From NCBI RefSeq assembly GCF_001580615.1, contig NZ_LHZC01000050.1, positions 62,001 through 126,000 of the forward strand: a stretch of 64,000 bases of DNA, in the 5' to 3' direction. Source of the stretch: Acetobacter malorum. Its GTDB lineage: Bacteria; Pseudomonadota; Alphaproteobacteria; Acetobacterales; Acetobacteraceae. The translations under genes were made by a program, and so were the position numbers. This document shows positions 38,318 through 51,938 of the stretch, piece after piece. The notes below the pieces were generated by a model, which was given only the letters and a program-made list of their open reading frames with translations, made no database searches and was not told where the DNA came from. Position 1 is the first letter of the stretch; the number at the start of each line of letters is the position of its first letter.

Positions 38318-39811
38318 TTATTTATTCTTGTATTTATATGTAATAAGACCAAAAACAGACGCAACAACCATAAAAATAATCGGAAAATAATGTAGATACC
38401 AGTGGGTATTGCCGGGGTCAAAAACAGACAATCTTGGCCACGCCACATTAACAAGTAGAAGAGCCCCAATAACAACAGCAACAAAATTAATGATAAGCCC
38501 TTTACTCCGTCCCAAATAAAAATACTCCATACCCCCTGAGACAGGGTTAACACCCTTGATGCGTAAAATAAGCATAGGGAGGGTAACCAACAAATAAGCA
38601 AAATAAATTGTAACAGTCGTAACAGAACACAAAGCACTAAAAATAGCGGAGTCACCGTAAGACAGCCACAACAGTGCTATAGCCAGCACAGTTACTACGA
38701 GTGTTGCAACCCAAGGTGTTCCGGTTCTGACTGATACGCGTGTCAAAAAAGGAGACAGAGGCAACGCACCATCGCGCGCCATCGAAAACATAACTCTTGC
38801 TGCCGCGTTTTGAATGGCAAGAGTGGCAGAGAGAATGGAAATTGCGACCATTGCAAACAGTACGTGCCCTGCAAAACCACCTGTTACAGCAGCCAAAACA
38901 TAGGAAACACCATCTTTGGCCAAATTGCCGTCTGTTAACGATGGCGCGGCCATAAGAGCCCCCATGACCATAAGAGCCCCGCCAAAAAATGAAACCATAA
39001 GACACTGAATAATAGCTTTGGGCGTGGTGCGTCGTGGGTCATTGGTTTCTTCTGAGAGCTCTGCTGCGCTATCAAACCCATACATGACATAGGCCGCCAT
39101 TAAGGTAGATGACAAAAAACTCCAGAATGTGGGTGATTGCACTCCGCCGCCCAGCACAACAGACGGGCCACGACTGGTATGGGTAAACAAAACAACAAGC
39201 AGGATAATCAAACCGATTATTTCACAATACACACCGATTGCTGTTGCCGTAGCTGCTGCCCGCACCCCTAGGGAAGAGATTAGGGAGCAAATAGCAATGG
39301 CCACTGTTCCTAAAATAACAGCATTGGCCGCCCCTGTTGGCGAACCCAAGGCTGTATCACCCCCAAGAACCTGAAAGCCAATCCAGACACTTGGCAACAC
39401 AGATTGCATGGCAATAGCAATGGCCGCCACACTCATAATATAGCCAAGCAGCATAAACCAGCCCGCAGACCAGCCTATGCTGTCATTGGATAAACGCCGA
39501 GACCATTGGTACACCGCTCCGGCCACAGGATAAGAAGCAGCAAGTTCTGCAAAGCAGAGCGCAGTAGAAAACTGGCCGATAAAAACGATCGGCCATGTCC
39601 AGAAAAAAAGCGGACCACCAAAGCCATAACCCGTAGCAAAAAGTTCGAAAATTGTCGATAAAATAGATACAAATGAAAAACCAGATGCAAAAGATGCAAA
39701 TGGCCCTAATTCTCTGCGCAATTCCTGACCATAGCCAAACTGCGCAAGATCTTCCGCCCCAGAGAGCTCAGATACAGCTTTAACAGAAGACATTTTTTGA
39801 GAACATGACAT
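38318..39811 (-). CDS. APC-superfamily amino acid/amine permease
   Basis: 497-residue 12-TM permease of the amino acid-polyamine-organocation family. Typical features: ELRRELGPFASFASGFSFVSI at the N-terminus, FAELAASYPVAGAVYQWSRRL (helix 2-3 region), GFDSAAELSEETNDPRRTTPKAI (~260), and FSMARDGALPLSPFLTRVS (~352). ATG 39811 is preferred (GAGGG upstream); 7 codons of open frame precede it. Permeases of this kind accompany urea-carboxylase/guanidine genes in other bacteria, and here one lies downstream of that operon in the same orientation, so guanidine or a related cation is a possible substrate (inference). Confidence 0.88.
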   Translation of the reverse strand: MSCSQKMSSVKAVSELSGAEDLAQFGYGQELRRELGPFASFASGFSFVSILSTIFELFATGYGFGGPLFFWTWPIVFIGQFSTALCFAELAASYPVAGAVYQWSRRLSNDSIGWSAGWFMLLGYIMSVAAIAIAMQSVLPSVWIGFQVLGGDTALGSPTGAANAVILGTVAIAICSLISSLGVRAAATATAIGVYCEIIGLIILLVVLFTHTSRGPSVVLGGGVQSPTFWSFLSSTLMAAYVMYGFDSAAELSEETNDPRRTTPKAIIQCLMVSFFGGALMVMGALMAAPSLTDGNLAKDGVSYVLAAVTGGFAGHVLFAMVAISILSATLAIQNAAARVMFSMARDGALPLSPFLTRVSVRTGTPWVATLVVTVLAIALLWLSYGDSAIFSALCSVTTVTIYFAYLLVTLPMLILRIKGVNPVSGGMEYFYLGRSKGLIINFVAVVIGALLLVNVAWPRLSVFDPGNTHWYLHYFPIIFMVVASVFGLITYKYKNK

Positions 39812-39932
39812 CAGTTTACCCTCGACAAGCAATCATAACAACACTGAACATGGGAGCAGACCTAAAAGAACAAAGAGCATCATGCAGAAACTAACTATAC
39901 CAAACATTTTGCAGGAAGAATGATACAACGGG

Positions 39933-41740: not shown

Positions 41741-42667
41741 TCACTTAGTCATTGTTGCCATAGCAATAGCTGCGGCTGATGTTCTGTTTTCAATACCAAG
41801 TTTAACAAAGATCTGCTCAAGATGTTTGTTGACCGTGCGTGGGCTGATGTTCAAGATAATACTCACGTCTCTGTTAGACTTACCCTTGCTGATCCAGAGC
41901 AATACTTGTGCCTCACGCACCGTAAGCCCAAGGCGTGTTTCAAGCAAACGCTCCTCGTCACCTGGGCGTTTTAATAAAAGCGATATTGCGTTTATGCTGT
42001 CATCCATTGTCCCCATCAACACACACTCTATCACCCCACCAGCAACCTCTATTGTTTGCCGCATCGCAAGGGAGCGCTGCTGGAGGAGGTTGATGATGAC
42101 GGCACGCAGTGGCTCTGGCAGAGGCTGATTAATGGCCCAACCGGGAAAAGCACTAGTTAAAACAACAGCGGACTGTGGGGTGTGCCACAACAAGATGCCC
42201 TGATTATCGACACCAACGGTTGGGCGGTGACCAAAATCGAGTGCCTGCGTAACAGCCTGCCCTGTTCTGGCATTGTGCAAATGTACATGTACACGTGCCA
42301 CCAGTTCGTTCACATCAACCGGCTTACGAATATAATCAACGCCCCCCGCTTTAAGGCCCTGCACAACGTGCTCAGTTCCGGTCAGGCCTGTCATAAAAAT
42401 AACCGGCACATGAGTAAACGTTGGATCGGCCCGTAGCCGCCGCGTAACCTCAAAACCATCTAGACCCGGCATTAACCCATCCATCATAATAATATTGGGC
42501 ACCACCTTCTTAAGAAGGTCCAGTGCCGCAAAACCATCACGAGCTATAAGCACGGTCATGCCTGCTTCCTCCAGTGCAGCTGTCACAAAATGCAGTGACT
42601 GAGGCATATCATCGACAACCAGAACACATGGCTGTGCTCTTTCTGTCAGTTGATCATAATTCGGCAT
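41741..42667 (-). CDS. LuxR/NarL-type response regulator
   Basis: 308 residues: receiver domain at ~12-130 with acidic pair at 19-20, phospho-acceptor Asp63 in IIMMDGLMPGLDG and Lys in YIRKPVD. A ~100-residue middle region is not recognised. The C-terminal LuxR HTH (~235-303) reads LGLTVREAQVLLWISKGKSNRDVSIILNISPRTVNKHLEQIFVKLGI. Overlaps the upstream kinase gene by 14 bases, so they form a pair. Its position after the guanidine operon suggests control of that operon or of the downstream permease (inference). Confidence 0.88.
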   Translation of the reverse strand: MPNYDQLTERAQPCVLVVDDMPQSLHFVTAALEEAGMTVLIARDGFAALDLLKKVVPNIIMMDGLMPGLDGFEVTRRLRADPTFTHVPVIFMTGLTGTEHVVQGLKAGGVDYIRKPVDVNELVARVHVHLHNARTGQAVTQALDFGHRPTVGVDNQGILLWHTPQSAVVLTSAFPGWAINQPLPEPLRAVIINLLQQRSLAMRQTIEVAGGVIECVLMGTMDDSINAISLLLKRPGDEERLLETRLGLTVREAQVLLWISKGKSNRDVSIILNISPRTVNKHLEQIFVKLGIENRTSAAAIAMATMTK

Positions 42668-44372
42668 CGTTAATTGCTCTGGTTATTGCTGCCAGGTCAA
42701 AGTCACGCACATACCGTTTTATTATCGCAATAAATATTCTATCAGATTCCGTTTCGATTGCGAGAGAATTCAGCACGTTTTCCACGCCTCGAACATGCCC
42801 CAGCTCTGATGCTTGGCGAATTTTGTGGAAAGACTGTCGAATTTTCGATGAAAGACCCGAAAAATAATCGTTAGAAAAATCAGGTATGTCGATTTCCACC
42901 TCATCGTCATTCACGTAAATCCACTCTAGGTGTAGTACGTGGCCGATAGTGGTGAGTAAGGTGTTACTATCAACGGGTTTTGTAACAAAAGCATCATAAT
43001 CTGCGGCTCTGTCTGCATCTGCATTTAGTTCGGCATTGCAGGCAGAAACTATAATGATAGCTGGTTTGCGTGGGTGTTCTGAGCGTATTTTAGCCGCCGT
43101 TACCAGATCGTTTTCACCGGGCATTTTCACGCTCAGCAGCACCATATCTGGGTGGAATTGCGCCACGGCGTGAAGGCCTGAAAGGCCGTCATACGCTTGA
43201 TGCACACCAAAGCCTAGCGGCACCAACAAGGCCTCCAGAAAGTCACGCTGGAGCGCATCATTATCGACCACCAGCACGGAAAGCGGTTTGCCTCTATACC
43301 CTACAATCTGACCTTTAGAGGGCGCGGGTTCTGCTGTGTCGGACAGGTTATGAACGATGGGCAGCATAATTCTGAGGCAAAATGTGCTCCCAACACCCAC
43401 CTGACTGTCTACTGTGATCTCGCCTCCCAACATCTGCGTAAGCACTCGTGTTATGGCAAGGCCAAGTCCTATGCCGGGCTTGCCCCGAATTTGCGCACCG
43501 CAACCACGTTCAAAAGGTTCAAACACACGCTCCAGATCATCTGTGGCAATGCCTGCCCCTGTGTCATTCACGTCAATCCGCGCCACCTCATTTCGATAGT
43601 GCACGGAAAGCGTTACGCAGCCTTCATCTGTATATTTAATGGCGTTTGAAAGGAGGTTTACGAGAATTTGGCGAAGCCGTTTTTCATCTGTCCTGATCGT
43701 GGTTGGTAATGGATCATGTGCAATGAAGTCTAGTTTAAGACCTCTTGCTTGTGCTTGTACCCGAAACATCATGATAACATGTTCAAGCAAGTCTCGTATT
43801 GAAACAACGTCTGACTGGACTTCTACATGTTTGCTTTCTATTTTTGAAACTTCCAGCAGGGCCTCGACAAGGCTTGTTAGATACTCGGTTGATTGACGAA
43901 TAACAGCCCCAGCTTCTTTGGGGGGAAACGGGTTGCCACGCTCTAACAGTTGGGCATAGCCATAAATGGTATTTAGTGGTGAGCGAACATCATGACTGAC
44001 AGAGACCAGATAACGTGTTTTTGCTTCATTAGCGGCAAGAGCGGCATCGTGCGCTCTACGTAGGGCCGTCTGCGCTCTGGTGCTCTCATCAAGCTCTGCT
44101 TTTAACGCATTGAAGCGGTTTTGCGCCTCTACCTCTGCTGTGCGGTGGCGTTTTTCTTGTAACACCAACTGCCATATACCAACCCCTGCCTGCAGGCAGA
44201 GGCAAAGAATAACACTCACACTATACCAGATGAGTGTAGCCCACCCCACCAAAACCACACCACACCAAAACACGGCCCCAAACAAAACAACAGCAAGAAA
44301 ACACGCAGTAAGTAGCATTGTCGCAATAAGCAACCAATGCTGTTTCTCCCACATTTTTTTGCGTATCTTCAT
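42654..44372 (-). CDS. Hybrid sensor histidine kinase with degenerate receiver
   Basis: 572 residues. Two TM helices at ~13-30 and ~34-70 with almost no periplasmic loop, a coiled linker, H-box with His127 in YLVSVSHDVRSPLNTIYGYAQLLERG, N-box ILVNLLSNAIKYTDEG (~225), and G-boxes DTGAGIATDDLERVFEPFERG and GIGLGLAITRVLTQML. A receiver domain follows (~358-480), but the phospho-acceptor position is Ser414 (HPDMVLLSVKMPGEND) instead of Asp; the acidic VVDND and Lys of VTKPVD are kept. A C-terminal helical tail (~490-572) may be Hpt-like, but I see no clear Hpt His. Pairs with the overlapping LuxR regulator. Confidence 0.88.
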   Translation of the reverse strand: MKIRKKMWEKQHWLLIATMLLTACFLAVVLFGAVFWCGVVLVGWATLIWYSVSVILCLCLQAGVGIWQLVLQEKRHRTAEVEAQNRFNALKAELDESTRAQTALRRAHDAALAANEAKTRYLVSVSHDVRSPLNTIYGYAQLLERGNPFPPKEAGAVIRQSTEYLTSLVEALLEVSKIESKHVEVQSDVVSIRDLLEHVIMMFRVQAQARGLKLDFIAHDPLPTTIRTDEKRLRQILVNLLSNAIKYTDEGCVTLSVHYRNEVARIDVNDTGAGIATDDLERVFEPFERGCGAQIRGKPGIGLGLAITRVLTQMLGGEITVDSQVGVGSTFCLRIMLPIVHNLSDTAEPAPSKGQIVGYRGKPLSVLVVDNDALQRDFLEALLVPLGFGVHQAYDGLSGLHAVAQFHPDMVLLSVKMPGENDLVTAAKIRSEHPRKPAIIIVSACNAELNADADRAADYDAFVTKPVDSNTLLTTIGHVLHLEWIYVNDDEVEIDIPDFSNDYFSGLSSKIRQSFHKIRQASELGHVRGVENVLNSLAIETESDRIFIAIIKRYVRDFDLAAITRAINDAEL

Positions 44373-44517: not shown

Positions 44518-46332
44518 TTATGAAGCGCGTGACTTCAGCCATGCACGCCACCCCCCCCAACTGGTAATTTCCTGTGCGTCGGCAAGGGCATAGCCATCAC
44601 AGACAAAGCCTGTCTCCCATGAGCCATCTGCCAGTTCCACTTTACCAAGGGCTAATGGGGCTGGAATGTTGGTTAAGAAAGACCCAAGCTCTGCTGAGGG
44701 CACTTCCCACACTTCTACTTCAATGGCCTGCCCGCCTTCGCTAGCGCGTACCATGGCAGGGCGCATAGGCGGCCCACCCGGCAAGGCATATAGGCGGTAA
44801 TGCGCAGAGGTTGTGGTGGCAGAGACCAAACGCCCCTGCCGCTCACGCAGTTGCCAGTTAAGCGGCAAACCTTCCAGATGGGCACCGCAAACAACAACGC
44901 GAGCTCTGTCATTACTTGCCCGGCGCATTTTACCTACAGAATCCGGCAGTGTGTTGCCGCCCACCAGCGCTAACTTGGTAGTATGCTGGAATTTGTTGGC
45001 AACAGACAGAAGGTACTGATCTGTAAATACCCGCCCAAACAACGTAATGCCCCATGGTAGGCCATTGGTCATAAAACTGGCAGGCACGGCTACAGCAGCG
45101 TAGTCCAGCAGGTTCATGAAGTTGGTGTACCAGCCCAATTTTGAATTGGCCGCAACAGGTTCCCTATACAAGTCATTAAGGGTAACCGGGTGGGGCATGG
45201 AAGGGGTTATTACAAAGTCGAGGTCAGCCATCAGGGCATCACACACCATTTTTAGGTGTTGCAGCCGGTATAAGGCCTTGAAGTGATCGAGTGCTGAATA
45301 ATGCGGTGCTTTTTCAAGAACATCATGAATAACCGGCAAAACGGCTTCTGGGGTTTTTGTTATTAATGGACCCGCAACCAGGTAACGCTCTGCCACCCAT
45401 GGCCCTTCATACAGTAAGCGGGCGGCTTCCAAAAATGGAGAAAAATCTAAGGAGACTTCTGTTCCACCCATGTTTTTGAGTTTGGCGATAGAGGCGGCAA
45501 AGAGTGCTGCGCTTTCATCATCACCAAAAAATTCTGTTACTTTTGGCACACCAAACCGAAAACCCGGTTCAATGTCACCAAAGGCTGTTGCATCGTTCCA
45601 TGCCGGGTTGTGGCGGCTAAAATCATCACGGGGGTCGTGCCGGGCAACCAACCCCAGTAAGCGGCTGGCTTCTGCCGCCGTAGCGGTAAAAAGGGTCGTG
45701 CAATCAAGCGTGCGACAGGCAGGCACAACACCAGCTGTTGAAATAAGTCCTTTACTGGCTTTAAGGCCAACCAGATTATTATACGCCGCAGGAATACGCC
45801 CACTACCGGCTGTATCTGTACCCAAAGAGAAACTGGCCACACCCAACGCAACCGCCAATGCAGAGCCCGCACTTGACCCGCCTGAAGGATACTCCGGCAG
45901 AACACTGTTTTTGCAGATACCGTAGGGGGAGCGTGTGCCGTTAAGCCCTGTTGCAAATTGATCCAGATTGGCTTTTCCTACAGGTAAAGCCCCTAATTCA
46001 ATTAGCTGTTCAACAATGGTCGCACTTTCCTTAGGCATATAGGCAAAAGCCGGGCACGCGGCTGTGGTTGCAACACCTTTTAGGTCAATATTATCTTTTA
46101 TAACAAACGGAATACCATAAAGCGGTTTGGTTTTGGCTGCCGGATTTTCAAGTCTTTCCAGATAAGGCTCGAGTTCTGCTTCATCTAGAATATGTATAAA
46201 TAGATTAAATTCTGCATTCAGTTTTGTCGCACGGCGTTTCAGCTGTGCCATCAGGTCGCGCGGGGTTATGTCGCCGCGAGTATAAGCTGCGGAAAGACTA
46301 TCAATATGTAAATTAGGAAAATCGTTTTTCAT
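44518..46332 (-). CDS. atzF: Allophanate hydrolase
   Basis: 604-residue enzyme that hydrolyses allophanate to CO2 and ammonia, the final step after urea or guanidine carboxylation. N-terminal amidase-signature domain (~1-440): catalytic Lys in YGIPFVIKDNIDLKG (~73), Gly/Ser motif YPSGGSSAGSALAVALGVASFSLGTDTAGS (~148-178). The C-terminal ~140-residue AtzF domain (from ~460) has AVFGAHLEGLPLNWQL-type sequence (VVCGAHLEGLPLNWQLRERQGRLV) and ends in GWRAWLKSR. Lies 4 bases after the stop of the carboxylase gene, so the two are co-translated. Confidence 0.94.
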   Translation of the reverse strand: MKNDFPNLHIDSLSAAYTRGDITPRDLMAQLKRRATKLNAEFNLFIHILDEAELEPYLERLENPAAKTKPLYGIPFVIKDNIDLKGVATTAACPAFAYMPKESATIVEQLIELGALPVGKANLDQFATGLNGTRSPYGICKNSVLPEYPSGGSSAGSALAVALGVASFSLGTDTAGSGRIPAAYNNLVGLKASKGLISTAGVVPACRTLDCTTLFTATAAEASRLLGLVARHDPRDDFSRHNPAWNDATAFGDIEPGFRFGVPKVTEFFGDDESAALFAASIAKLKNMGGTEVSLDFSPFLEAARLLYEGPWVAERYLVAGPLITKTPEAVLPVIHDVLEKAPHYSALDHFKALYRLQHLKMVCDALMADLDFVITPSMPHPVTLNDLYREPVAANSKLGWYTNFMNLLDYAAVAVPASFMTNGLPWGITLFGRVFTDQYLLSVANKFQHTTKLALVGGNTLPDSVGKMRRASNDRARVVVCGAHLEGLPLNWQLRERQGRLVSATTTSAHYRLYALPGGPPMRPAMVRASEGGQAIEVEVWEVPSAELGSFLTNIPAPLALGKVELADGSWETGFVCDGYALADAQEITSWGGWRAWLKSRAS

Positions 46333-46336
46333 GAGT

Positions 46337-49300
46337 TCAGTCTTCCTTGATTACAATGACGCATTGTCCGGATCTGACTGGAGCGCCAGGTTGAATGCGA
46401 ATTTCCATAACTGTGCCAGAACAGGGTGCAACAAGAGATATTTCCATTTTCATGGATTCCAGAACAACAACAACCTGACCTACTTCAACTCTGTCGTTCA
46501 GGCTAACAAGTACCTGCCATAGGTTGCCGGCAATGCCGCTTTCAACGGCCTGCAGACCGTTGGCTAACGGTACATCTTCCCCTTCCCCTAGGGCTACATC
46601 GTTACTTTCAAAATTAGCCGTACCATTTTCTATCCAGCGTTGGCGTTCTGCATCAAAAGCGGCCTGCTGGCATTTTTGGAACGTGGAAATTGCCTCATGA
46701 TGCTGCTCAAGAAACGCATGATAATCTGAAAGAGCGATTTCTGTTTGTTCAATTTTGATATCATAACGGCCCAACGGAAAGTCTCGGCGGATAACTTCAA
46801 GCTCTTCGGCTGAAACCGGATAAAAACGGATCTGGTCAAAAAAGCGCAAGAGCCATGATTTACCCTGAAACGCTTCTGGCAAGCGATACCGCATCCACAT
46901 TTGCAAGGTACGGCCTACAAACTGATAGCCCCCCGGACCTTCCATACCGTAAACGCACAGGTAAGCCCCGCCGATGCCAACCGAGTTTTCCGCTGTCCAG
47001 GTGCGGGCTGGGTTATATTTTGTGGTTACCAACCTATGACGCGGGTCTAGCGGCGTTGCGACTGGAGCGCCCAGATAGACATCTCCCAGCCCCATAACCA
47101 CGTAGCTGGCGTTAAAGACAATGTTGTACACGTCATCAATGCTGCCAAGGTCATTAATACGGCGGATAAATTCTAAATTACTGGGGCACCATGGTGCATC
47201 TTTACGCACGGTGGTCATGTATTTACGAATGGCCAACTGGCAAGCGGGGTCGTCCCATGAGAGAGGGAGGTGCACAATACGAGACGGAACACGTAGATTG
47301 GTTTTTTTTAAAACATCTGCCCACAGTTGCTTAATGATGCTGAGCAACTGCCCAGAAGTGATTAGATTGGATGCATAATGAATCTGTAAGGAACGAATGC
47401 CGGGCGTTAGATCAATAATGCCGTTGAGATTTTCTGCCTCCATTGCGCGCATGAGCGCATGCGCCCTAAACCTGAGTGTCAGATCAAGTTCGGGATCGCC
47501 AATTTCAAGCAGAAGGTTTGCATCACCAGAGAGCCGGGCCACAAGGCGTGTGCTGCCCTCCCCTTCGGTCATGACAATAGGGGAGGAAAGCTGTGCGCGC
47601 TCCCACGATGGGCTTTGCTCTTGCAGTGTCTGGACTTCAGCTTCATCCGAACGGGCCAAGCTGTGCGCCGTGGGGAGGTCAACCGGTACAAAGCGCACCA
47701 GATCACCTGCCCGTAGCTGCCCCAGTTTCCATAGGTCCGCGCTTATAACGGTTACAGGACACACAAACCCACCTAGGCTAGGGCCGTCTGGCCCCAGAAT
47801 AACCGGCATATCTCCCGTAAAATCGACTGCCCCAATGGCATATGGATTGTCATGAATATTGGAGGGGTGAAGGCCTGCTTCTCCACCACTTTCACGCACC
47901 CATTCCGGCTTGGGGCCAATAAGGCGAATGCCCGTGCGACTGGAGTTAAAATGGATTTCCCACTTTGTAGCGAAAAATGTTTCCATATAAGCGGGTGTGA
48001 AATATTCCGGTGCGGCATGGGGGCCATAGATCACACGCACGGTCTGCACATCGGGCAGTGTTGGGGTAAGCGATACAGGCAGCACAGCACCATCGGTTAG
48101 GCTCTGTGACGGCGGGAGATGCAATACATCACCTACACGCAACGCGCGCCCCGCATGCCCGCCAAACTGACCCAGAATAAACGTGCTGCAACTGCCCAGA
48201 TAAGAGGGAACAACAATCCCGCCGCGAAGGGCCAGATAACTACGTGCCCCTTTTCTGACGATACTACCCAGCTTTAAAACAGACCCTGCACAAACACGGA
48301 ATACGGTGTTCATTGAGCAAGCCTGCCCATCAAGCTCAATAACAATTTCGGCACCGGTAACGGCAACAACAGCGTCTGTGTTAAAACGCAGAGTTGGGCC
48401 ATTCATGGTTATTTCAAGACCAGGCGTTCCTGCGGCATTACCCAAAAGCCTGTTAGCCAACTGGAAGGATCGGTTATCCATAGGGCCAGAGGGGGGAATA
48501 CCAACAGCCCAGTACCCCAACCTGCCGGGAAAATCTTGCACGGTGGTTTGTGTGCCAGCGACAAGAACTTCAAACGTATTGGCTTTATAGGTTAAGCCCT
48601 CAAGGCATCTTGTCCATGGGTTGCTTTCTACAAACGGTTGATAGGCTAGAATTTGCCTAAGATAGGCACAATTAGTTTCAACCCCGTAAATCTCTGTTTT
48701 GGCGAGTGCTTCATCCAGCCGGGCAACGGCTGCTTGCCGCGTGCTATCATGCGCAATAACCTTAGCCACCATGGGGTCAAAAAACGCAGGGATTTCTGCG
48801 CCAGCTTCTATCCATGTATCTATACGCAGAGCTTTTCCGTCTGCTGGTGGAAAGTGAACATGCGTGACAAGGCCAGGAGAGGGCTGAAAATTACGGCCGG
48901 GGTCTTCAGCATACAGTCTGGCTTGAATGGCATGCCCCTGCGGCGTTAAGCCAGCCATGAGCATGCTGAGCGGGGGCAGTGTGCCTGCCGCCAGTTCAAC
49001 CATCCACCGAACCAGATCTACACCCCAGACCTGCTCCGTTACCCCGTGCTCAACCTGTAGCCGTGTATTAACTTCTAGAAAGTAAAATTGCTTGACATCA
49101 CTATCATAAACAAACTCTACAGTGCCAGCACTGCGGTAGTGCGTGGCTTTACCGAGCCGAATTGCAGCTTCACACAAGGCTTCAGCTATGCCATCGGGCA
49201 GGCCAGGGGCTGGGGTTTCTTCTATAACTTTCTGGTTTCGGCGTTGTATTGAACAGTCGCGCACTCCAAGGGCAATAACTCCACCTTCTCCATCACCAAA

Positions 49301-49936
49301 TATCTGAACTTCAAGATGCCGTGCATGCTCAATATATTTTTCAATAAATACTCCTCCATCAGAGAAGTTGTTAAGGCCTAACTGACGAACTTTATCAAAG
49401 GCCTCTATCAATTCTTCTTCAGAGTAACAGACACGCATGCCTATGCCGCCACCGCCGGCCGTACTTTTGAGCATGACCGGGTACCCGATCTGGGTAGCGG
49501 CATCTGTTGCGTCTTGCGCTGTATTGAGCAAAGGGGTGCCACGCAGCATAGGCACGCCTTGTGCGGCGGCCAGATCTCGCGCGGTATGTTTTAAACCAAA
49601 AGTACGAAGCTGCTCCGGTGTAGGTCCAACAAACGCAAAACCTTGACTCTCACACTTTTCAGCAAAAGCGGCATTTTCAGACAAAAACCCGTAACCAGGA
49701 TGAATAGCCTGAGCCCCCGCCTGCCGAGCTGCGGCCAGAATTTTATCTATTCTCAGATATGTCTCGGCTGCAGCGCCTTCTCCAAGCGAAATAGCCTGAT
49801 CCGCATTGCGTACATGAAGACTGCAAAGGTCTGCTTCCGAATAGACAGCCACCGAACCAACATGCAGGTCTTGTAAAGTCCGCTCAATACGGGCTGCAAT
49901 GGCACCACGGTTAGCTATGAGTAATTTTTCAAACAT
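46337..49936 (-). CDS. uca: Biotin-dependent urea/guanidine carboxylase
   Basis: 1199-residue multidomain carboxylase. Biotin carboxylase/ATP-grasp part at ~1-445 (KLLIANRGAIAARIERTL at the start, KSTAGGGGIGMRVC at ~160, EVNTRLQVEHGVTEQ at ~287). KipA-like (AHS2) domain at ~465-770, KipI-like (AHS1) at ~800-1000, biotinyl domain at the end with the biotinylated Lys1163 in LESMKMEIS. It carboxylates urea to allophanate or guanidine to carboxyguanidine. The riboswitch and DUF1989 partners favour guanidine. ATG 49936 gives the canonical MFEKLLIANRG; 11 codons of open frame precede it. A hairpin separates it from UAAP1. Confidence 0.94.
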   Translation of the reverse strand: MFEKLLIANRGAIAARIERTLQDLHVGSVAVYSEADLCSLHVRNADQAISLGEGAAAETYLRIDKILAAARQAGAQAIHPGYGFLSENAAFAEKCESQGFAFVGPTPEQLRTFGLKHTARDLAAAQGVPMLRGTPLLNTAQDATDAATQIGYPVMLKSTAGGGGIGMRVCYSEEELIEAFDKVRQLGLNNFSDGGVFIEKYIEHARHLEVQIFGDGEGGVIALGVRDCSIQRRNQKVIEETPAPGLPDGIAEALCEAAIRLGKATHYRSAGTVEFVYDSDVKQFYFLEVNTRLQVEHGVTEQVWGVDLVRWMVELAAGTLPPLSMLMAGLTPQGHAIQARLYAEDPGRNFQPSPGLVTHVHFPPADGKALRIDTWIEAGAEIPAFFDPMVAKVIAHDSTRQAAVARLDEALAKTEIYGVETNCAYLRQILAYQPFVESNPWTRCLEGLTYKANTFEVLVAGTQTTVQDFPGRLGYWAVGIPPSGPMDNRSFQLANRLLGNAAGTPGLEITMNGPTLRFNTDAVVAVTGAEIVIELDGQACSMNTVFRVCAGSVLKLGSIVRKGARSYLALRGGIVVPSYLGSCSTFILGQFGGHAGRALRVGDVLHLPPSQSLTDGAVLPVSLTPTLPDVQTVRVIYGPHAAPEYFTPAYMETFFATKWEIHFNSSRTGIRLIGPKPEWVRESGGEAGLHPSNIHDNPYAIGAVDFTGDMPVILGPDGPSLGGFVCPVTVISADLWKLGQLRAGDLVRFVPVDLPTAHSLARSDEAEVQTLQEQSPSWERAQLSSPIVMTEGEGSTRLVARLSGDANLLLEIGDPELDLTLRFRAHALMRAMEAENLNGIIDLTPGIRSLQIHYASNLITSGQLLSIIKQLWADVLKKTNLRVPSRIVHLPLSWDDPACQLAIRKYMTTVRKDAPWCPSNLEFIRRINDLGSIDDVYNIVFNASYVVMGLGDVYLGAPVATPLDPRHRLVTTKYNPARTWTAENSVGIGGAYLCVYGMEGPGGYQFVGRTLQMWMRYRLPEAFQGKSWLLRFFDQIRFYPVSAEELEVIRRDFPLGRYDIKIEQTEIALSDYHAFLEQHHEAISTFQKCQQAAFDAERQRWIENGTANFESNDVALGEGEDVPLANGLQAVESGIAGNLWQVLVSLNDRVEVGQVVVVLESMKMEISLVAPCSGTVMEIRIQPGAPVRSGQCVIVIKED

Positions 49937-50006
49937 TACAATTTCATTCAGAAGAAAGTGGCTACCCACTACGGGAAAAAGATTCGCCTGGCTCTACAAC
50001 CCACCT

Positions 50007-50031
50007 AAAAACAGCCAAAGTGGCTGTTTTT
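50007..50031 (-). terminator. Intrinsic-terminator-like hairpin between UAAP1 and the carboxylase
   Basis: Perfect 10-bp inverted repeat AAAAACAGCC (50007-50016) and GGCTGTTTTT (50022-50031) with a five-base loop. On the minus strand the 3' arm ends in T residues directly at the end of UAAP1 (its stop codon overlaps the hairpin), and it lies about 70 bases before the carboxylase start. It is symmetrical and could act on both strands. Confidence 0.65.
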
Positions 50032-50665
50032 AATTCCAGACTAGCACTTCAGCAGGTGTGGGATTCCACCCATTGCAGGGATTGTTCAATTGCGGACAAT
50101 TAGAAATAAGAACCATAACATTTTGTTCGGCACGCATTTCAACATATTTTCCGGCGGCGGAAATACCATCTTCAAACGTAAGCCCACCATCTGGTGTAAC
50201 AGGCACGTTCATGAAAAAGTTGATATTGGCACCAATATCACGCTTGTCTAATCTGCCATCATGCAGACAGGCACACAAGAAATTGTCACGGCAACTATGC
50301 ATAAACCGGCGGTCGTGCGCGTAGCGAACGGTATTGCTCTCTTGCGCGCAAGCGCCACCCAAAGTGTCATGCCTACCGCATGTATCTGCCACAATTGTCA
50401 ACATAGGATTACCCATATTGGAATACAGCACTGTGCCACACGTAAGGTAAACGCTATTTTGGCGCCGTATTGTACGCTGGGGGTCGTAACGCTCCCGTGG
50501 CGCTTGAGCGTTATAAAATAAAGTATCTATGGCCTGATTACCTTCCAGATCGAGAAGGCGCAGTGTTTGACCAGCTTTTATTTCAAAAAGAAACGGTTCA
50601 CCTGCGGGAATCACATGGCGGAAAAACGCTGTTTCGGGTGATAGAGCACTTGGCGTCAATTTCAT
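50030..50665 (-). CDS. Urea carboxylase-associated protein 1 (DUF1989; carboxyguanidine deiminase subunit)
   Basis: 211-residue DUF1989 protein. Motifs: [35 protein letters not shown] (~23-57), [37 protein letters not shown] (~69-105) with Cys/His residues suited to metal binding, and [20 protein letters not shown] (~150). By family knowledge UAAP1/UAAP2 (CgdA/CgdB) form the enzyme converting carboxyguanidine to allophanate plus ammonia. ATG 50665 follows AAGGAAAA; a longer frame has no support. Starts 11 bases after UAAP2 ends. Which subunit carries the active site is not decided here. Confidence 0.9.
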
Positions 50666-50676
50666 GTCCGTTTTCC

Positions 50677-51408
50677 TTACACGCAATAAAGAGCTGTATT
50701 GAAAAAAGCGCGCCCATTTTCTGGCCGAGAGGTGTGACAACCAAAAGAAATACCGTCTTCCGCAACATCATGTACTGAAAAAGAGATAGGTTTTGGGTTG
50801 TACTGCGGTGAAGGGTCCATGGGGTGCTGCAACGCAGTCAGAATAATCAGCACATCCATCGGAGCGTACAAGTCGATATAATCACCCGCAGAAGAGTTGC
50901 CCTCCACAAAGGAAAACTGACCCGTTTCATCAGCTATGACTTTACTGAAAAAATTAACAACCATCAGGAGGTCTTGAATATTAAGGTTCCACTTTCCCAT
51001 TTCTACAAGAAGGTTATCGTGTCCATTGCGATGGAATTTATTGCGCAGCTCCTGATAGCGGCCAGGGCCGTATTTTTCTTCTACTTCCTGCGCGTTCAGT
51101 ACGCCGCCAAAAGAGTCGTGCCAGCCACAGCTATCCTCTGATATAGCGAGTAAAACGCGTCCCATATCAGAATACAGACAGTGCCCCGCAGTCAGTTTTG
51201 CAGTATGCTGCCCCTTTAGGGTATCTGGTAGGTTAAAACGCTCACTTTTCTGATCTGCATTGAGAAAAGTGGCACTTACATTTGCACCGCCCTCTATATC
51301 TTTAATGCGCAAAACACGCCCACGCTTAAGGATAAAAGACGTATGCCCCCCACCAGGGACAAGTTCTTCGTAAAGACACGGACGTAACGTCGACATATCA
51401 TTTTTCAT
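50677..51408 (-). CDS. Urea carboxylase-associated protein 2 (DUF1989; carboxyguanidine deiminase subunit)
   Basis: 243-residue DUF1989 paralogue of UAAP1. Shared motifs include [36 protein letters not shown] (~15-50), [29 protein letters not shown] (~73-101) and [30 protein letters not shown] (~146-175). The Cys/His pair in SCGWHD parallels TCGRHD of UAAP1. Longer than UAAP1, as usual. Its ATG at 51408 shares one base with the TAA of a 48-codon ORF upstream (TAATG), suggesting translational coupling; AGGAGC lies ~12 bases upstream within that ORF. Confidence 0.9.
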
Positions 51409-51554
51409 TATAGACTCTCAGCTCCTGGAGGGTGGAAAGCGCAACAGCGTGAACAAGCACGCGCAGCAGCAGGAACAGAAAACTCAGGCCTACAAGATTG
51501 TGTAAGCGAGAGTCCTATCTCATTGATAAATAAGGCGGAAGGAGAGAAATGCAT
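51408..51554 (-). CDS. 48-aa leader-like ORF between riboswitch and UAAP2
   Basis: ATG 51554 is preceded by GGAGGT at an ideal 7 bases. The 48 codons (MHFSPSALFINEIGLSL..., ending ...HPPGAESL) stop with TAA whose last A is the first base of the UAAP2 ATG. Four cysteines cluster in the second half (C21 and CSRCC at 34-38). I recognise no family. It stands directly behind the riboswitch, so it is the first translated frame of the guanidine operon and could couple riboswitch control of its ribosome site to UAAP2 translation. Confidence 0.5.
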   Translation of the reverse strand: MHFSPSALFINEIGLSLTQSCRPEFSVPAAARACSRCCAFHPPGAESL

Positions 51555-51610
51555 TTTAAAGACCTCCGGTTAACACGACGACAAACAGAGCAGCGCGACA
51601 CAAAAAGTGT

Positions 51611-51712
51611 GCTGTCTCCCGGGCTTTTGTCCCGCCGTGTAACCTCAACCAGAGGTCGTTCGCTCTCGGACCAGGCACCTGCATAAACAGGTCGGAACCC
51701 TAGCGAACCATT
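51611..51712 (-). ncRNA. Guanidine-I riboswitch (ykkC-yxkD class)
   Basis: Read on the minus strand, the conserved elements appear in order: CTAGGGTTCCG (51703-51693), hairpin ACCTG-tttatg-CAGGT, GGTCCGAGAG (51672-51663), a variable stem GACCTC-tggtt-GAGGTT (51657-51641), ACGGCGGGA (51638-51630) and GCCCGGGAGA (51624-51615). These match the guanidine-I aptamer consensus. Downstream lie a CAGC-ACAC/GTGT-GCTG hairpin and the Shine-Dalgarno of the 48-codon ORF. The riboswitch is ~57 bases before that start and controls the DUF1989-carboxylase-allophanate hydrolase operon. Confidence 0.93.
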
Positions 51713-51800
51713 GCATATTGTTACAGTCTAACTAAGACTGCATAACGCTTTGATAGCAGAGTCTCTGACATTGAATCAATACCGTAATGGATTTTTTGGA
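51713..51800 (-). promoter_or_regulatory. Candidate promoter region of the guanidine operon
   Basis: On the minus strand TTGATT is followed after 18 bases by TATCAA, a weak sigma-70-like pair, and a 6-bp inverted repeat CAGTCT/AGACTG (51724-51729, 51735-51740) lies between it and the riboswitch. The repeat could be bound by the nearby LuxR-type regulator. Position is supported; function is inference. Confidence 0.3.
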
Positions 51801-51895: not shown

Positions 51896-51938
51896 GGGTG
51901 CTTTCAACTAAGGTCAAAAGCACCCATTTTTCTTTTTT
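51896..51938. terminator. Hairpin between the Rieske gene and the guanidine operon
   Basis: GGGTGCTTT (51896-51904) and AAAGCACCC (51917-51925) pair across a 12-base loop. A T-rich run (51927-51938) follows on the plus strand; on the minus strand the 3' side is only moderately T-rich. Most useful role is ending the Rieske ferredoxin transcript, which reads on the minus strand towards the guanidine operon. Confidence 0.55.

Follow-up and report, generated by a model that had tools for sequence, protein, structure and literature searches.

Guanidine-I riboswitches are described in a 2025 review as usually being transcriptional ON switches (PMC12186494), and a 2025 study presumed a terminator for the guanidine-I riboswitch of a guanidine carboxylase operon (PMC12508155). 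The locus described here shares with these terminator-type riboswitches (ykkC subtype 1) its aptamer, its proposed ligand-ON logic and the kinds of gene it precedes (guanidine carboxylase, UAAP1/2 and allophanate hydrolase), but differs in that, in the window (the whole 64,000-nt stretch of Acetobacter DNA that was analysed), no terminator was found between it and the ORF that follows, that its own P2 arm can pair with a Shine-Dalgarno (SD) sequence, and that its target is a leader ORF. Guanidine-II (mini-ykkC) is likewise proposed to free an SD on guanidine binding, but its aptamer is unrelated and its SD is masked by a P0 helix (PMC9561414); no guanidine-II match was present in the window or in the two Acetobacter loci scanned. 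The alphaproteobacterial guanidine-I loci (e.g. L103-L105) also appear, by eye, to mask an SD (CCAATCC against GGATTGG), but they do so with a separate anti-SD 3' of the aptamer, P2 being uninvolved.

Of the precedents that we found for a riboswitch that works via a short, coupled ORF, the closest is the B12 riboswitch of M. tuberculosis ppe2 (PMC11260477). As in our locus, the ORF under riboswitch control is short and ends in a stop that overlaps the start codon of the main gene, and ppe2 is described as needing translation of this uORF; it differs in being an OFF switch with another ligand and aptamer, and in having been tested by experiment, whereas the relay proposed for the window comes from sequence and models. 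No earlier description of P2-SD pairing in a guanidine-I riboswitch was found in the accessible portions of PMC12186494, PMC12508155, PMC9788540, PMC7266159, PMC9561414, PMC6031431, PMC2211319 and PMC3766115; the founding guanidine-I papers lie outside this set and may mention it.

The aptamer and its operon

RF00442 was the only Rfam model to match the window at its gathering threshold, and it did so over its full length, in agreement with the guanidine-I identity given to the aptamer in the first-pass annotation. The genomic setting fits the class i.e. the aptamer precedes genes of guanidine metabolism (UAAP1, UAAP2, carboxylase and allophanate hydrolase). Judged by covariance-model match and gene context, 51614-51714 (minus strand) is a genuine guanidine-I riboswitch. 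The features of the locus are as follows.

51896..51925, minus strand: terminator-like hairpin of the upstream unit (consensus match only)
51889-51862, minus strand: promoter-like site after the upstream unit's terminator-like hairpin (consensus match only)
51614..51714, minus strand: guanidine-I riboswitch aptamer (RF00442; 97.3 bits against a gathering score of 63; model positions 1-107 of 107)
51647..51657, minus strand: P2 5' arm and loop, GACCTCTGGTT, putative anti-Shine-Dalgarno (letters, fold, energy model)
51641..51646, minus strand: GAGGTT, the 3' arm of P2, which pairs with GACCTC when the aptamer is folded
51626..51640, minus strand: aptamer core, ACACGGC + GG + GACAAA, which the strand downstream takes in the OFF fold (minimum-energy fold)
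51573..51585, minus strand: TTTGTC GTCGTGT, partner of the aptamer core and likely strand-displacement entry point (pairs at prefix length 140-145)
51561..51571, minus strand: AACCGGAGGTC, leader ORF ribosome site (GGAGG at 51567-51563), which pairs with the P2 arm
51408..51554, minus strand: 48-codon leader ORF, its stop TAA overlapping the UAAP1 ATG by 1 nt (TAATG)
51421..51476, minus strand: stem predicted within the leader ORF (energy of the local fold -20.9 kcal/mol; codons 30-48 have a low pS)
50677..51408, minus strand: UAAP1 (TIGR03425, 306 bits)
50030..50740, minus strand: UAAP2 (TIGR03424, 326.7 bits)
46337..49969, minus strand: urea/guanidine carboxylase (TIGR02712, 1823.7 bits)
44518..46332, minus strand: allophanate hydrolase (TIGR02713, 756.4 bits)

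We take UAAP1 and UAAP2 to be the proteins since re-named carboxyguanidine deiminase (its subunits). A reference title cited in PMC12186494 equates proteins annotated for urea metabolism with carboxyguanidine deiminase. Directly downstream of the allophanate hydrolase gene, on the same strand, lie a hybrid histidine kinase and a LuxR-type response regulator (42654-44372 and 41741-42667, minus strand). About 4.7 kb past the operon, 38318-39832 (minus strand) matches the urea carboxylase system permease family (TIGR03428) at 575 bits, under the cut-off of 740; this permease-like protein is perhaps a guanidine importer replacing the ABC transporter of the relatives.

Pairing of the P2 arm with the ribosome site

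According to the first-pass annotation, GACCTCTGG in the variable stem of the aptamer (51657-51649) is complementary over nine positions, with one G-U, to CCGGAGGTC (51569-51561), the ribosome site of the 48-codon ORF. The minus-strand letters are as claimed and bear out the complementarity, GGAGG lies 8 nt 5' of the ATG, and the pairing of GACCTC with GAGGTT that was assigned to the aptamer is present in the fold of the isolated aptamer. The pairing is in fact larger than had been proposed, extending to 11 bp between GACCTCTGGTT (51657-51647) and AACCGGAGGTC (51571-51561) and to a run of 13 contiguous complementary positions if a second G-U is allowed. When the 62 nt downstream of the P2 hairpin were dinucleotide-shuffled, runs of at least 13 with the hairpin arose in 90 of 20,000 shuffles. 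The two strands of the window hold 95 GGAGG sites (leader site included), and the 13-nt run was unique to the leader site, the next best being a single site with a run of 12.

In the minimum-energy fold the helix extends beyond P2 into the ligand core, where ACACGGC (51640-51634) pairs with GTCGTGT (51579-51573) and GACAA with TTGTC, so that this OFF helix takes P2, the ligand core and P3. Capture of the ligand core, the overlap with UAAP1 and the recurrence in other classes of the phylum are all additions to the first-pass annotation. Sequence and energy model thus describe an aptamer strand that is complementary to the SD and cannot pair with it while the aptamer fold is in place. In A. orientalis, three of the 11 ribosome-site positions differ from those of the window (GGAGGTC to AGGGGTT) and the arm is unchanged; read off the alignment, all three substitutions retain a standard pair with the arm.

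We folded the RNA from 51714 to 51520 with and without the aptamer imposed. In the unconstrained fold (-69.0 kcal/mol) the ribosome site at 51569-51561 was wholly paired (unpaired probability 0.0), as the proposal of a hidden SD requires. With the aptamer forced, the SD core became re-paired with codons 5-7. The translational switch put forward in the first-pass annotation therefore stands in part: the OFF half, in which the arm hides the SD, is well supported by thermodynamics, cognate matching and the A. orientalis substitutions, and the ON half, i.e. ligand-driven release of the SD by guanidine, is something that we infer.

In the nearest-neighbour model, forcing the Rfam aptamer gave a fold 20.5 kcal/mol worse than the free OFF fold. 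One guanidine-I riboswitch has a published affinity of 44 uM (PMC12508155), which at millimolar guanidine would by our estimate repay only a few kcal/mol. Because the gap exceeds what guanidine binding could repay, simple equilibrium switching is unlikely, and the choice between OFF and ON would have to fall during transcription. Folding of successive prefixes in 5-nt steps gave a plausible kinetic path for such co-transcriptional timing. The aptamer-like fold was best up to 135 nt, the core was captured by TTTGTC-GTCGTGT at 140-145 nt, and P2 was taken at 155 nt i.e. the core is captured before the ribosome site enters P2, and bound ligand would block this first step.

Since the unpaired probability of the SD showed little release, opening energy was computed in addition, and both measures are given. 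The cost of opening positions -15 to +3 in the window fell from 12.7 to 6.5 kcal/mol once the aptamer was withheld; with the aptamer withheld and present the costs were 8.5 and 11.6 kcal/mol in A. orientalis, and 5.7 and 13.1 kcal/mol in A. senegalensis. Across the loci compared in the next section, the mean drop was 2.9 kcal/mol in the group with the same type of P2 as the window (P2-type) against 0.9 kcal/mol in the other group, and drops of at least 3 kcal/mol were found at 26/66 P2-type and 14/51 other loci; at one Pseudomonas locus (L025) the cost rose. Withholding the aptamer raised the mean SD unpaired probability of P2-type loci from 0.12 to 0.21, with an increase of more than 0.3 at only 5 of the 66. 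The modelled release effect across P2-type loci is therefore modest.

Cognate matching and leader ORFs across Pseudomonadota

A strict aptamer pattern fitted 140 of 160 loci, which held 131 distinct aptamers (some loci carry two); among the 20 misses, three were regained by a looser pattern and 14 from recorded coordinates, and the stretches fetched for L055, L093 and L094 contained no aptamer. This yielded 148 aptamer records, 143 of them distinct and 142 with a start site (L002 was lost). After L131 was dropped, the 141 loci reduced to 119 distinct ones, 67 P2-type and 52 other, of which 66 and 51, respectively, were covered by the folding and opening-cost analyses. P2 type was defined as ..ACC...GGTTA, the start site was taken as the first SD-led ATG (doubtful picks include L157, L016, L128 and L129), and duplex energies were computed between P2 and the 24 nt before the ATG. 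Loci L023-L102 were found via UAAP1 similarity (best 80 of 112), hence Pseudomonas is over-represented; L001-L022, L103-L131 and L132-L160 came from draws at own, family, genus, class and phylum level.

At the 67 P2-type loci the duplex between cognate partners averaged -18.95 kcal/mol against -16.02 kcal/mol for permuted partners, a difference reached in 0 of 5000 permutations, which leave some relatedness among loci. The 52 other loci had no cognate excess (-14.04 vs -13.87 kcal/mol; 1616/5000). The excess persisted when one locus was taken per distinct P2 hairpin (n = 29; -16.52 vs -13.3 kcal/mol; 0/1000 in each of 50 draws) and when all loci were pooled without grouping (-16.81 vs -14.19 kcal/mol; 0/5000). 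In a strict ungapped register of arm against SD the total excess was small (7.73 vs 7.45 of 10 positions; 0/2000), and the loop positions alone showed no significant covariation in that register (2.51 vs 2.37 of 4; 194/2000); several Pseudomonas arm:SD pairs seem to need a bulge. Matched pairs include CCAGT/ACTGG in Pseudomonas, GGT/ACC in Erwinia rhapontici, TGG/CCA at L152 and CAAA/TTTG at L031, and at L159 the match has shifted to the loop and 3' arm and is still kept. As judged from these sequences, complementarity in the relatives is conserved specifically between cognate partners.

Folding gave a similar division. The SD was paired with the P2 region at a probability above 0.5 at 44/66 P2-type loci and at 2/51 other loci; at the remaining 22 P2-type loci such pairing was not predicted at this level. 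The two exceptions in the other group, L102 and L155, are its only non-alphaproteobacterial loci, and the only P2-type loci within the alphaproteobacteria are the three from Acetobacter. The split therefore follows classes, as assigned from kinship records (for L102, from the record name), and outside the alphaproteobacteria P2 looks like a built-in anti-Shine-Dalgarno. Two other arrangements were seen. By eye, loci L103-L105 (alphaproteobacteria) carry GGATTGG..CCAATCC..GGATTGG just 3' of the aptamer, which looks like a separate anti-SD/anti-anti-SD device. L003 and L008 each carry a divergent pair of neighbouring guanidine-I aptamers, which lie on opposite strands with about 130 bp between them; by eye, one precedes a carboxylase-like gene and the other a short ORF.

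Leader ORFs also recur. Of the 142 riboswitch loci, 36 start with an ORF of fewer than 75 codons, and 24 of these ORFs are SD-led and overlap the next ATG by 1-10 nt. These are not 24 independent events: 15 of them form one related set (L030-L101; Pseudomonas, Stutzerimonas and Halopseudomonas), whose members share a 10-nt overlap but are 25-42 codons long and encode differing peptides. Overlapping leaders also recur in Acetobacteraceae loci. For background, the 574 long ORFs of L023-L102 include 25 with such an overlap (1-16 nt), of which 17 were riboswitch leaders by position, leaving 8/557.

In all three Acetobacter genomes with the riboswitch, the 48 codons and the TAATG stop/start fusion are kept. 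Between the window and A. orientalis, leader codons 1-29 are nearly unconstrained (pN 0.375, pS 0.444) and free of indels and stops. Codons 30-48 are conserved at both kinds of site (pN 0.095, pS 0.27; 0.049 and 0.64 for UAAP1), with the low pS expected for an RNA element. In the window these codons are predicted to mask, through the stem in which GUUCCUG (51476-51470) pairs with CAGGAGC (51427-51421), the SD-like AGGAG that, with GAGAG, lies before the UAAP1 ATG (13 and 6 nt, respectively); in A. orientalis a different predicted stem masks GGGAG before UAAP1. A 24-nt block, GCGTGCTTGTTCACGCTGTTGCGC (51439-51462, minus strand), is identical in the three genomes, within an ORF whose first half drifts. 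The peptide matched no NCBIfam or Pfam family, and hence no known family of regulatory peptides, as would be expected of a cysteine-rich leader peptide attenuator; a large protein search returned one 48-aa homologue, so that translation of the leader is putative. Descent of the ORF from donor genes was also considered and was unsupported, the fetched non-Acetobacter loci giving short matches only (E of at least 0.36). This pattern suggests that translation of the leader counts for more than its product, and the TAATG overlap means that the switch probably gates the operon via translational coupling.

Proposed mechanism, alternatives and origin

We think it likely that this guanidine-I riboswitch acts as a translational ON switch, with the leader ORF relaying its state to UAAP1 and the operon. 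During transcription, P1, P2 and P3 of the aptamer would form first. With guanidine bound, P2 and the P3/ACACGG core would be locked, leaving the leader ribosome site in weak local structure only. Without guanidine, the emerging TTTGTC-GTCGTGT would take the aptamer core, and AACCGGAGGTC would then invade P2 and pair with its 5' arm, burying the SD in a helix of about 24 bp. Because the SD-like sequence of UAAP1 is predicted to be masked by the leader-ORF stem, translation would be handed from the leader to UAAP1 through the TAATG overlap, and the guanidine carboxylase operon would be placed under one gate.

Transcription attenuation, in which unliganded RNA would form an intrinsic terminator competing with P3 and the match between arm and SD would be secondary, draws on the statements in PMC12186494 and PMC12508155 that guanidine-I is usually or presumably transcriptional, and on an apparent remnant of a terminator stem in the window, GGGAGACAGCACAC..GUGUCGCGCUGCUCU, which resembles a Pectobacterium stem that is followed by T6 and, by eye, looks like a real terminator. 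In the window, however, this stem is followed by GTTTGTCG rather than by a U tract, and its T5 lies within the hairpin loop; in Acetobacter the core-capturing strand stands where the U tract would be, and the stem looks like a terminator platform turned translational. A stronger competing terminator was the rival structure named in the first-pass annotation, and the consensus-based scan from 51613 to 51554 i.e. between aptamer and ORF returned no terminator-like site, and so no intrinsic terminator overlapping P3. It returned terminator-like sites elsewhere, at 51925-51896, inside the leader ORF and inside UAAP1; of these, the one at 51507-51488 in the leader ORF was discarded because the T run is interrupted in A. 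senegalensis. No T run of at least 5 precedes the SD at 58 of the 67 P2-type loci, and two of the nine that have one are Acetobacter loci, where it lies in the hairpin loop. We therefore regard attenuation as improbable for this locus; the T runs at nine loci and the Pectobacterium stem mean that some of the P2-type group may be under transcriptional control. A translational block combined with Rho, in which an untranslated leader would expose the RNA to termination inside the leader ORF, is a reading that we hold to be possible but rather unlikely. It would fit leader ORFs that stay open while their peptides drift; PMC12508155 cites a paper that connects translational riboswitches with Rho, and PMC11260477 discusses this connection, but in ppe2, the closest precedent, the authors' stop-codon data argued against Rho (PMC11260477). 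This reading is compatible with the translational-switch explanation and not exclusive of it.

The match itself could be a by-product, with GACCTC/GAGGTT present in P2 for reasons of the aptamer and any SD resembling GAGGTT. The cores of P2 and SD do match by construction, permuted duplexes already reach -16.0 kcal/mol, and the strict-register test on the loop was not significant. Cognate pairs nevertheless beat permuted pairs that have the same cores, L159 relocates the match and keeps it, and the guanidine-I aptamers of the alphaproteobacterial draws mostly lack GACCTC in P2, from which it follows that the aptamer does not need it; this explanation is disfavoured and very improbable. That the 48-codon ORF is untranslated, its SD serving nothing and UAAP1 starting independently, would agree with the absence of a peptide family, the single homologue and the AGGAG and GAGAG before UAAP1. 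Against this, three genomes retain the frame, length and TAATG while codons 1-29 diverge, leaders with start/stop overlaps recur in Stutzerimonas, Halopseudomonas, Pseudomonas and Acetobacteraceae, and the SD-like sequence of UAAP1 is predicted to be masked, and we consider this explanation improbable as well.

Guanidine-I riboswitches were found in 3/49 genomes of the genus and 16/299 of the family (the window's own genome counted in both). Close relatives of the window's UAAP1 occur in Acetobacter senegalensis (99%) and A. orientalis (91%); it is 70-74% identical to UAAP1 of two P2-type genomes of another class (G767 and G885) and, among the best 80 of 112 loci, 69-76% identical to most named gammaproteobacterial relatives, 67-68% to Pectobacterium and 65% to Erwinia. 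In eight family genomes outside the genus, chosen for bearing the aptamer, UAAP1 identity was 59% and 55% in two, 33-44% in five, and one had no UAAP1 match. All six non-Acetobacter loci scanned had guanidine-I upstream and guanidine-II downstream of UAAP1; both Acetobacter loci scanned had guanidine-I alone, directly before the leader ORF. Acetobacter probably acquired the P2-type switch together with the operon, and these data fit a transfer from beta- or gammaproteobacteria with loss of intervening genes, as read from identities and gene order.

More broadly, we see about an even chance that guanidine-I riboswitches of beta- and gammaproteobacteria (and of Acetobacter by transfer) are mainly translational, the variable P2 being a co-evolving anti-SD, and that several lineages carry a disposable leader ORF that hands over ribosomes. 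If so, the P2 arm, which looks merely variable in the aptamer consensus, would be under selection from the ribosome site of each host gene. The comparison suggests that many members of the Pseudomonadota carry an aptamer-encoded anti-SD matched to their own gene, including Erwinia rhapontici (L095), which is described as using guanidine as a nitrogen source (PMC12186494). Models of guanidine operons would then change, the variation of P2 between species would have a reason, and guanidine sensors could be read by a rule open to direct test. Leader ORFs, being recurrent, would add natural candidates for the relay of riboswitch control through translational coupling.
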